From Methyloversatilis sp. (GTDB lineage: Bacteria; Pseudomonadota; Gammaproteobacteria; Burkholderiales; Rhodocyclaceae): 64,000 nucleotides of DNA. The stretch is from NCBI RefSeq assembly GCF_030696805.1, contig NZ_JAUYRO010000112.1:60707-124706 (forward strand). Reading direction: 5' to 3'. Position 1 is the first letter of the stretch; the number at the start of each line of letters is the position of its first letter. Both the position numbers and the translations under genes were made by a program. Under the pieces are notes generated by a model. That model was given only the letters and a program-made list of their open reading frames with translations, was not told the origin of the DNA and did no database searches. This document shows, piece by piece, positions 1 through 37,112 of the stretch.

Positions 1-1449
1 GGCGCGCAAGGCCACCACCCACTCGTTGGTGCGGCCGTCGCCCTTGACGCCGACCGACTTCACCGGCAGGAACACGGCGAAGGCCTGGCTGGTGAGGTCG
101 TACCAGCTCTTGCCGCTGGCCGGGTCGAGGGTGTTGCGCAGTTCTTCGATGAAGATGGCGTCGGCGCGGCGCAGCAGGTCGGCGTACTCGCGGTGGATTT
201 CGCCAAGGATGCGCACGCCCAGGCCCGGGCCGGGGAAGGGGTGGCGATAAACCATGTCGCGCGGCAGGCCGAGCGCCACGCCCAGTTCGCGCACTTCGTC
301 CTTGAACAGTTCGCGCAGCGGCTCGAGCAGCTTGAGGCCGAGCTTTTCCGGCAGGCCGCCGACGTTGTGGTGCGACTTGATCACCGTCGCCTTCTTGCTC
401 TTGGCGCCACCGGACTCGATCACGTCCGGGTAGATGGTGCCCTGGGCCAGGAAGGACGCCCCCTTGTGTCCCTCACCGCCCGCCTTCAGCCTGGCCGCCT
501 CGGCCTTGAACACCTCGACGAATTCGCGGCCAATGATCTTGCGCTTGGCTTCCGGATCGCTGACGCCCTTCAGGTGACCGAGGAACTGGTCGGACGCATC
601 GACGTGGATCACCCGTGCGTGCAGCCGGCCGACGAACATGTCCATCACCATTTGCCCCTCGTTCAGGCGCAGCAGGCCGTGATCGACGAACACACAGGTG
701 AGCTGGTCGCCGATGGCGCGGTGGATCAGCGCGGCGGCGACCGATGAATCGACGCCGCCGGACAGGCCGAGGATGACCTCTTCGTCACCGACCTGTTCGC
801 GGATGCGCGCGACCGCCTCCTGGATGTAGTCGCCCATGATCCAGTCGGCGGCGCAGCCGCAGACGTCGATGACGAACTTGCGCAGGATGTCGGCGCCGCG
901 TGCGGTGTGCGTCACTTCGGGGTGGAACTGCAGGCCGTAGAAGCGGCGCGTCTCGTCGGCCATGCCGGCGATCGGGCAGCTGTCGGTCGACGCCATCAGC
1001 TTGAAGCCGGGCGGCAGTTCGGTCACCTTGTCGCCGTGGCTCATCCACACCTTGAGCATGCCGTGGCCCTGCTCGGTGCGGAAATCCTCGATGCCGTCCA
1101 GCAACTTCGTGTGGCCGCGCGCGCGCACTTCGGCGTAGCCGAATTCGCGCACCGTACCGGCTTCCACCTTGCCGCCCAGCTGCTGCGCCATCGTCTGCAT
1201 GCCGTAGCAGATGCCCAGCACCGGCACGCCCAGTTCGAACACCGCCCGCGGCGCGCGGTCGGTTTCTTCCTCGTACGCCGACATGTGGCTGCCGGACAGG
1301 ATGACGCCCTGCGCGCCGAAGCCGCGCACGAAGTCGTCACTCACATCGGCCGGATGGATTTCGCAAAAGACATGCGCCTCGCGCACACGGCGCGCGATGA
1401 GCTGGGTGACCTGGGAGCCGAAATCGAGGATGAGGATCTTGTTGTGCAT
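1..1449 (-). CDS. guaA: GMP synthase (glutamine-hydrolysing), 3' end beyond window
   Basis: Cytosolic enzyme that amidates XMP to GMP using glutamine and ATP, the last step of GMP synthesis. 483 codons are present; the family is about 520 residues, so roughly the last 40 lie beyond the left edge. The N-terminal class I glutamine amidotransferase domain has the nucleophile motif GICYGM (Cys81) and the FHPEV histidine motif near residue 170. The ATP-pyrophosphatase P-loop GLSGGVDSS follows near residue 230, then the dimerisation region with the [11 protein letters not shown] motif. The ATG at 1449 gives the family start [13 protein letters not shown]. No clear Shine-Dalgarno precedes it, because C-rich heptad repeats begin 6 nt upstream. 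It lies downstream of guaB in the same direction, so a guaBA operon interrupted by a small element is likely. Confidence 0.97.
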
Positions 1450-1455
1450 GGGATA

Positions 1456-1490
1456 TTCAGGAATCAGGGGACAGGGGCTGGGGTCTAGGG
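1456..1490. repeat. Heptad repeat array, left arm (G-rich on plus strand)
   Basis: Five consecutive 7-bp units in perfect register with consensus NNYRGGG; examples are ATCAGGG, GACAGGG and TCTAGGG. Read on the minus strand it is a C-rich tract just after the four-helix-bundle gene and just before the guaA start; it also supplies the stop codon of that gene. It is the inverted counterpart of the array at 1868-1910. The decamer GGGTCTAGGG recurs exactly in the array at 37017-37051. Confidence 0.8.
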
Positions 1491-1866
1491 TGAGTCCGCG
1501 AGGCGCGACGATAGGGACGCTTGCAGACCTCTGATCATCCGGCCGAGTTCATCGGCGTCCTTCAGCGTGACGTTCATTCGTTGCGCATCCACGTAATCAA
1601 GGCGATGCGAGAGAAGGAGCCGGGTTTCGATCTCGGCAAGAGAGCCGGCTGCGATCGACAGAAAACGCAGGAAATCACGCGTGGAGCTTCTTGCATGGCC
1701 TTCGGCGATATTTGAAGGGACCGAAACAGCGGCGCGTCGCAACTGGCTCACCAGTGCGAAGCGCTCGCCCTCGGGGAAACACCGGCTCAGGGCATAGACA
1801 GGCAAGGGCGAGATCCATTGCTCGTTGCCAGACCAGCAAATCGCGATAGCTGCGCACCTCGCTCAT
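1485..1866 (-). pseudogene. Four-helix-bundle (S23/IVP-like) protein gene with a 1-nt frameshift
   Basis: The 5' part, from ATG at 1866, reads MSEVRSYRDLLVWQRAMDLA, the hallmark start of the four-helix-bundle family (23S rRNA intervening-sequence proteins, distantly related to Avd of diversity-generating retroelements). The rest, with VYALSRCFPEGERFALVSQ and VPSNIAEGHARSS, continues in another frame to a stop at 1485. Removing one T near 1807 restores a continuous frame of about 125 residues, the family's usual size. The gene is therefore a recent pseudogene, or there is an assembly error. Its start and stop both touch inverted heptad arrays, and a GGAGGG within the upstream array could serve as its ribosome binding site. 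The biochemical role of the family is unknown. Confidence 0.85.
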
Positions 1867-1867
1867 C

Positions 1868-1910
1868 CAGCCCCGGTCCCTCCAGCCCCTAGCCCCTGTT
1901 CCCCAGCCCC
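1868..1910. repeat. Heptad repeat array, right arm (C-rich on plus strand)
   Basis: Six 7-bp units, one with a 1-nt insertion, with plus-strand forms such as CAGCCCC, TAGCCCC and TGTTCCC. It lies between the guaB stop codon and the four-helix-bundle start codon. Its reverse complement nearly matches the left arm at 1456-1490, so the two arms form an inverted pair around the gene. Confidence 0.8.
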
Positions 1911-3928
<2,018 letters not shown>

Positions 3929-37007: not shown

Positions 37008-37016
37008 TTGTCTTTG

Positions 37017-37112
37017 AGGGACCAGGGGCGAGGGTTCAGGGTCTAGGGGAAACGTCGGGGCGGCATCGCCGCCGCATGCTCTCCAGTCCCTAGCTCCTCT
37101 TCGCTGACCCCT
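37017..37112. repeat. Paired inverted heptad arrays between carA and carB (no cargo gene)
   Basis: Left arm 37017-37051: five perfect 7-bp units on the plus strand of form AGGGNNN (for example AGGGACC, AGGGTCT). Right arm 37078-37112: units of the complementary form NNNCCCT, more degenerate (AGTCCCT, AGCTCCT, GACCCCT). The 26-bp centre holds a small GGCGGC/GCCGCC palindrome. Orientation (G-rich left, C-rich right) is the same as in the 1456-1910 element, but no gene lies between the arms. The right arm overlaps the last codons of carA. Confidence 0.75.

Follow-up and report, generated by a model that had tools for sequence, protein, structure and literature searches.

An S23 gene between inverted heptad arrays in the guaB-guaA gap of Methyloversatilis, a candidate gene-bearing form of a heptad-hairpin family

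Results

An S23 gene fills the gap between guaB and guaA

The window (the whole 64-kb stretch of Methyloversatilis DNA that was analysed) carries on its minus strand guaB, then an S23 gene, then guaA. The gap between the guaB stop codon (1911-1913) and the guaA start codon (1447-1449) is filled by the S23 gene and two arrays of 7-bp units, or heptads. The features discussed here are as follows.

1..1449, minus strand: guaA, GMP synthase, the downstream neighbour, cut by the window end (PF00117, PF00958)
1450..1910, minus strand: whole element (array, S23 gene, array), delimited from the guaA start to the guaB stop and by orthologous gaps in sister genomes
1457..1491, plus strand: heptad array on the left, at the 3' side of the S23 gene; units of the CAGGGGC/TAGGGTG type, with G runs on the plus strand; lag-7 segment, score 10.4
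1485..1805, minus strand: frame of the S23/23S rRNA intervening-sequence protein (four-helix bundle), 106 aa (PF05635, 106.3 bits)
1675..1866, minus strand: 5' part of the S23 gene (MSEVRSYRDLLVWQRAMDLALA...), out of frame with the remainder; a frameshift, by comparison with intact sister copies
1871..1910, minus strand: heptad array on the right, at the 5' side of the S23 gene; units inverted, G-rich on the minus strand, spaced 6 to 8, seen as C runs
1911..3467, minus strand: guaB, IMP dehydrogenase, the upstream neighbour (PF00478)
37014..37112, no strand assigned: a second heptad hairpin, lacking S23, between carA and carB (both identified by Pfam) and enclosing a GC-rich hairpin

A first-pass annotation had placed the gene in the S23/IVP four-helix-bundle family, and a profile search confirms this, PF05635 matching well above its curated cut-off of 33.8 bits. 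It had also described the start and stop of the gene as touching the arrays. This is true of the two codons, in that the stop (1485-1487) lies inside the left array and the likely ATG (1864-1866) directly adjoins the right one, but the gene between them is broken. The frame from the likely ATG stops after 63 residues and has no Pfam match, and the S23 domain sits in another frame, which ends within the left array. Thus the window copy is predicted to make no intact S23. Sister genomes have intact S23 copies at the same guaB-guaA place, and the S23 of one of these, from a Methyloversatilis discipulorum MAG (L035), is 95% identical to that of the window.

The window arrays are inverted but not in strict register

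The unit types CAGGGGC, TAGGGGC and TGGGGTC are common to both window arrays, in opposite orientation and pointing inward. Heptad arrays of opposed orientation, as first described, are therefore present; the strict register that was ascribed to them is not, since the G runs of the left array fall at 1467, 1474, 1480 and 1488 (steps of 7, 6 and 8) and the C runs of the right array at 1871, 1878, 1886, 1893, 1901 and 1907 (steps of 7, 8, 7, 8 and 6). Taken alone, the right array gives a lag-7 segment at 1879-1897 with a score of 7.6, under the cut-off of 10 applied elsewhere.

GGG or CCC repeated three times in 7-bp register is found seven times in the window, against a mean of 0.77 in shuffled sequence, and none of 200 first-order Markov shuffles reached seven. 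Four of these matches are in the S23-flanking arrays and three in the second array at 37018. The two arms at the S23 gene match each other inverted over ∼22 bases (score 15, mean of shuffles 9.3, with 11 of 2000 shuffles reaching 15), and the earlier suggestion that they could pair in RNA agrees with a predicted fold in which both arms are paired (z −3.42; 0 of 100 shuffles as good). In the carA-carB hairpin, GGG recurs in 7-bp register from position 37018 onward; its units, compared by eye, lead us to place it in this same family.

Heptad arrays accompany S23 genes in several phyla

Two samples of S23 genes were picked without regard to their flanks. The first holds 49 places from a PF05635 search of 395 genomes of the window's family, after exclusion of the G152 place and of those scoring below the family cut-off. 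Named genomes supplied the second, which began from the 80 best relatives of the protein in the window; 75 of these loci were used, the other five having less than 100 bp on one side, and the groups represented include Pseudomonadota, Planctomycetota, Acidobacteriota, Bacteroidota, Verrucomicrobiota and Clostridia. The samples overlap by one, as L008 and L035 are apparently the same contig. Strand-corrected flanks of ∼165 bp were scanned, an array being a lag-7 segment with a score of at least 10, and control windows were taken 500 to 1000 bp from the S23 loci.

Without clustering, a lag-7 array is found on at least one side of 99 of the 124 S23 loci (41/49 and 58/75) and on both sides of 71 (32/49 and 39/75), compared with 13 of 476 control windows (6/186 and 7/290). 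Lags of 5, 6 and 9 to 12 each account for at most two S23 loci. Because the control windows are largely coding, we also scored gaps between long open reading frames: the array score is reached by 3 of the 41 other gaps present in these loci and by 1 of 141 in a 400-kb portion of G182. When the loci are clustered at 70% protein identity, 74 of 95 have an array on either side and 52 on both, and five more have octads only. The 25 unclustered loci that lack a lag-7 array at threshold include five (L045, L064, L067, L084 and L102) whose arrays have units of 8 bp, in four cases on both sides, so the period is able to change.

Nine acidobacterial genomes have 1 to 13 S23 matches each. In the 30 loci read there, out of 56 listed S23 places and with some already in the second sample, a lag-7 array is present in 23 and on both sides in 15. 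Where neighbouring genes could be scored, both lie on the S23 strand at 51 of 88 loci.

The arrays are inverted, locus-specific, and related to the S23 protein

At 67 of the 71 two-sided loci (unclustered), inverting the downstream array improves its fit to the unit of the upstream one. The mean inverted match is 0.78, against 0.52 with partners permuted among loci (maximum 0.555 of 500). Inverted heptad flanks at other family members, which the first-pass annotation had proposed as a test, are thus found across phyla. The remaining four two-sided loci (L014, L018, L042 and L066) match better direct than inverted. The units vary widely by locus: AGTGGTC, GAGTGGC, AGTTTTC, CAAGATT, CAGAGGA and CGTGAAT are examples, alongside GGGGCTA in the window.

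For a comparison of S23 proteins with their heptads, removal of duplicates brought 159 loci to 147, and the 119 with a lag-7 array were kept. Pairs of loci were split by whether they share a neighbouring gene, although at a contig end a locus may have no neighbour that could be shared. Among pairs with no shared neighbour, heptad similarity is 0.464 at S23 identity below 0.4 (2534 pairs), 0.486 at 0.4-0.5 (3161 pairs), 0.523 at 0.5-0.6 (1101 pairs), 0.673 at 0.6-0.7 (30 pairs) and 0.720 at 0.7 or above (5 pairs). For pairs at an identity of at least 0.5, the difference was reached in 0 of 1000 permutations, with base composition and kinship uncontrolled. One acidobacterial locus (L318) and one from the window's family (L006) have S23 proteins that are 68% identical and a heptad similarity of 0.92, and among the acidobacterial copies read within one genome the units mostly differ from copy to copy. 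Given similar S23-heptad pairs at unrelated sites and differing units within genomes, we read the S23 gene and its arrays as probably travelling together.

Occupied, hairpin-only and empty sites

Within Methyloversatilis, the guaB-guaA gap holds an S23 gene in five genomes (G000, G226, G206, G243 and G152), a hairpin without S23 in six (G283, G257, G005, G295, G271 and G182), and neither in two (G118 and G070). The same S23 position is also seen in other genera (L010, L037 and L042), a recurrence that fits vertical inheritance there.

A second gap lies between genes that, from their protein sequences, we take to be gmd and fcl. It holds an S23 gene in G257, G283, G226 and G182. G226 and G182 each have a second copy of the gap, which is without the element, as are the gaps of G206, G070 and G118. 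One copy in G271 has other sequence and one is masked, and five genomes gave no full match in this survey. In the G226 pair, ∼25 bp of target has been replaced, and the junctions share AGATGC and CTGC. No target-site duplication, as used to recognise insertion sequences and MITEs, was seen at this gap, where one insertion was read closely; with ∼25 bp missing and a few junction bases shared, the insertion is not a clean one with target duplication. Of the occupied and precise empty sites that had been looked to as support for mobility, both occupied and empty sites thus exist, but the one empty site read closely is not a precise one. In G182 the array now supplies the fcl start, giving MNLESCIYVAG where the other copy has MDKHARIYVAG (L177:968-1954 and L185:974-1954), so that a heptad array has turned into a neighbour's first codons.

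Six further gaps have a hairpin (a single array at one of them) in some species and not in others, and the guaB-guaA gap and two further gaps have CAAG heptads in one species and GGGGCTA in another. Since the same gaps hold differing contents and heptad families across species, we read them as places of probable repeated arrival or conversion. One gap can be viewed side by side in L132:16600-16780 (G182) and L238 (G295), with hairpins of two heptad families.

Gene-less hairpins elsewhere in the genomes

Overlapping matches to CAAGRTK, those at S23 loci included, number 207, 69, 48, 19, 15, 10, 8, 2, 2, 1, 1, 0 and 0 in 13 Methyloversatilis genomes, and the reversed control gives 0 in all 13. 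GGGGCTR has 1 to 49 matches per genome and its control 0 to 6. Twenty CAAG array regions were fetched, chosen partly for visible pairs, and the 16 of them that are convergent pairs with a loop between therefore give no frequency; the other four (L231, L232, L233 and L241) have one arm only. CAAG hairpins often stand directly after a stop codon, with ends of (G)GCAGATKCAAG and its complement (by eye). At L224 (G283:C5), a heptad hairpin with part of its flank, ∼200 bp in all, occurs twice in tandem.

Beyond this genus, TGAGAAC has 252, 100 and 75 matches in three acidobacterial genomes whose S23 gene carries it, and 0, 12, 0, 10, 0 and 1 in six others. A 50-kb stretch of a Nostoc plasmid has 11 lag-7 arrays against 0 to 4 at other lags, and inverted heptads are present at all three cyanobacterial plasmid S23 genes that were read (20 records had a match).

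In Methyloversatilis, dispersed copies of the CAAG type are more numerous where an S23 gene carries that heptad (one-sided p 0.018), and the same excess is not clear for the GGGGCTA type (p 0.053), the genomes being non-independent in both comparisons. No S23 was found in G295 (93% complete), which has 48 matches of the CAAG type, or in G118, which has 37 of the GGGGCTA type; absence of S23 thus fails as a predictor of absence of hairpins. G182 has 46 GGGGCTA-type matches, yet the only S23 gene found there carries another heptad. We also considered, and rejected, a uniform rule by which acidobacterial genomes are rich in the heptad of their own S23 gene, as TGAGAAC fits it but AGTTTCR and CACTAGC do not. 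AGTTTCR is abundant in G396 and G397 (93 and 121 matches), and the prediction that it would be found at their S23 places failed, as it is absent from all the places that could be read (4 of 6 in G396 and 3 of 4 in G397). Three other acidobacterial genomes have more CACTAGC than the one with this heptad at its S23 gene.

The S23 protein is conserved and lacks a known catalytic domain

A search with L035, an intact relative, gives 2gsc (XCC0516) and 2rld as the nearest solved chains; the solved Xanthomonas S23 relative is a homopentamer, as cited in the available part of PMC4990558. Eight close intact S23 pairs have dN/dS values of 0.04 to 0.21, distant pairs being saturated, and such low values point to purifying selection and so to a protein that matters. 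The G152 S23 gives 0.47, and both this copy and that of the window look to be decaying. Across 127 S23 sequences (L035 positions), E39 is invariant, and R28 and E62 (97%), N36 and S59 (95%) and S32 (94%) are nearly so, which hints at a functional site. A Pfam scan of the window gene returned PF05635 only, with no known nuclease, polymerase or transposase domain, HUH/Y1 tyrosine transposases included. A four-helix-bundle gene appears in a table of phage elements in the available part of PMC5524665; a phage origin was considered and set aside, the S23 protein of L091 having no tblastn match in the phage collection.

Most S23 genes found inside 23S rRNA have the same flanks

Five of 32 loci scanned with Rfam, from three genomes, lie inside 23S rRNA (L019, L172, L159, L160 and L161), and four of the five have inverted heptads on both sides. 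Those of G195 have GACAGAT-like heptads on both sides. According to the available part of PMC4990558, the Coxiella S23 gene has tandem GACAGAT heptamers upstream of its start, the stem of this intervening sequence (IVS) is cleaved and excised by RNase III, and a transposition remnant is cited as one older hypothesis for IVSs. The 23S rRNA IVSs of Coxiella, Leptospira and others carry the same protein family in a stem loop. The window copy shares with them an S23 reading frame in the loop of a stem made by complementary ends (arms inverted, fold paired) but lies outside 23S rRNA, in a protein-gene operon. Since rRNA-embedded S23 genes have inverted heptads, and since the G195 unit resembles the Coxiella GACAGAT, the rRNA inserts and the operon inserts look like one element type. 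The available text of PMC4990558 has no report of heptads as a general, inverted and locus-specific trait of S23 genes, and among the matches listed from the open-access literature S23 genes occur with heptad arrays only in the Coxiella IVS.

Discussion

We consider it probable that the S23 gene and its two inverted arrays constitute one mobile element, the gene-bearing form of a heptad-hairpin family, in which S23 is predicted to recognise its own heptad. What the genomes themselves display is the layout, its recurrence, the link between S23 and heptad, the gene-less hairpins, the occupied and empty gaps, and purifying selection. We infer that the element moves and that S23 binds the heptad; mobilisation would then be the work of some enzyme. 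S23 would bind a single-stranded or RNA form of its own heptad hairpin, and copies of that hairpin would be placed in short gaps, at stop-codon boundaries and in rRNA loops. Such copying could be primed on a few matching bases and replace a short stretch of target, gene-less hairpins could be copied in trans, and the enzyme that does the copying could be one of the host's own. Within operons, insertion could be made tolerable by pairing of the RNA arms, possibly followed by RNase III cleavage like that of the rRNA inserts. Several results weigh against this reading: neither movement nor a target duplication was observed, S23 has no known catalytic domain, many hairpins occur in genomes without a matching S23, the AGTTTCR prediction failed and CACTAGC is more frequent elsewhere, the correlation of dispersal with S23 is weak and uncorrected for phylogeny, some S23 loci have no arrays or direct ones, and the guaB-guaA position recurs.

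The main rival is that host replication slippage and template switching between the arms of a pre-existing hairpin grow and homogenise the heptads, with S23 a passenger captured in the loop. Several observations suit it: by eye, both arms appear to draw on a common set of unit variants and not to be position-by-position complements, 4 of the 20 fetched arrays are one-armed, many hairpins have no S23, and the same gap has different heptad families in different species. We nevertheless think it unlikely, because arrays are much more frequent at S23 genes than in control windows or other gaps, and because the S23 sequence predicts the heptad at unrelated sites, when a passenger should not track the repeat around it. 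Perfect compensatory pairing of the arms was looked for by eye and was not seen.

Alternatively, the arms could be an RNA stem that selection maintains for regulation or processing, enclosing an S23 gene that is inherited vertically, has an RNA-binding role in the operon and does not move. Purifying selection on S23, neighbours that both lie on its strand at 51 of 88 loci, the predicted pairing of the RNA ends, and the recurrence of the guaB-guaA position in other genera are all in keeping with this. What makes it decidedly improbable is the patchy presence of the element in one genus, with empty second copies in the same genome, together with the resemblance of S23-heptad pairs between unrelated sites, also in different phyla, and signs of decay in two of the five guaB-guaA copies (the G000 frameshift, and the dN/dS of 0.47 in G152).

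The first-pass annotation had also raised G-rich structures, and quadruplex or telomere-like elements, in which the G-rich heptads themselves do the work, would suit the window, several other G-rich loci, and the GGGAATC repeats presented as quadruplex-forming in the available part of PMC4692102; this we regard as very improbable, since many heptads (AGTTTTC, AGTTTCA, CAAGATT and CGTGAAT) have no G runs and quadruplexes therefore cannot be what the loci have in common. Terminators of the ordinary intergenic kind, or low-complexity sequence next to a gene unrelated to it, would fit the terminator-like GC hairpin that some of the hairpins enclose, but period 7 is specific, with other periods near zero, and arrays are rare in control windows (13/476) and other gaps (3/41), which refutes this as a sole explanation and leaves it hardly credible.

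If the mobile-element reading of the S23 gene and its arrays is extended, S23 proteins may be the repeat-recognising factors of a bacteria-wide class of selfish elements that end in tandem heptads or sometimes octads, with cyanobacterial STRRs, the GGGAATC repeats of Xanthomonas, the TAACTGA repeats of Beggiatoa and rRNA IVSs all members or products, and each S23 lineage spreading its cognate heptad. We advance this tentatively, with slightly more doubt than belief. Were it true, the core of a mobile-element class present in several phyla would be a small protein in which no catalytic domain is known, and one answer would be offered both to the role of the widespread, unexplained S23/IVP family and to the origin of intergenic heptad repeats and 23S rRNA intervening sequences.

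Among known systems, REPIN/RAYT has a gene flanked by its own inverted repeats, together with dispersed gene-less hairpins of that repeat, the gene being defined as an HUH/Y1 transposase. S23 genes likewise have their own flanking inverted repeats, and hairpins of the repeat that flanks the gene are dispersed without it; they differ in that S23 is not an HUH/Y1 transposase and that its repeats are tandem heptads, not REP palindromes. Avd, of diversity-generating retroelements, has a related four-helix-bundle pentamer fold but works with a reverse transcriptase.

For Xanthomonas, the link to S23 elements rests on the part of PMC4692102 that was available. GGGAATC/GGGGATT heptads form 70 and 75 convergent inverted pairs in two genomes, and the arrays lie in gaps, close to stop codons; inverted pairs are few in Nostoc. 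The Xanthomonas heptads are not tied to insertion sequences, and the heptad regions are more stable than controls and mostly kept between two species, a stability that counts against the mobile-element reading. The heptads of both groups are treated there as G4-forming simple repeats, and the terms S23 and four helix do not occur in that text. S23 loci resemble the heptanucleotide STRRs of cyanobacteria in having 7-bp units in tandem between genes; the same part of PMC4692102 also cites the heptanucleotides of Calothrix, and a title on STRRs in RNase P RNA is cited in the available part of PMC4046671. The TAACTGA repeats of Beggiatoaceae are dispersed intergenic heptads that, unlike S23 arrays, are direct and not inverted, with one exception, and neither S23 nor four helix occurs in the available text of PMC4679880. 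Its author suggests that the mobile element might be a repeat-binding protein (PMC4679880).
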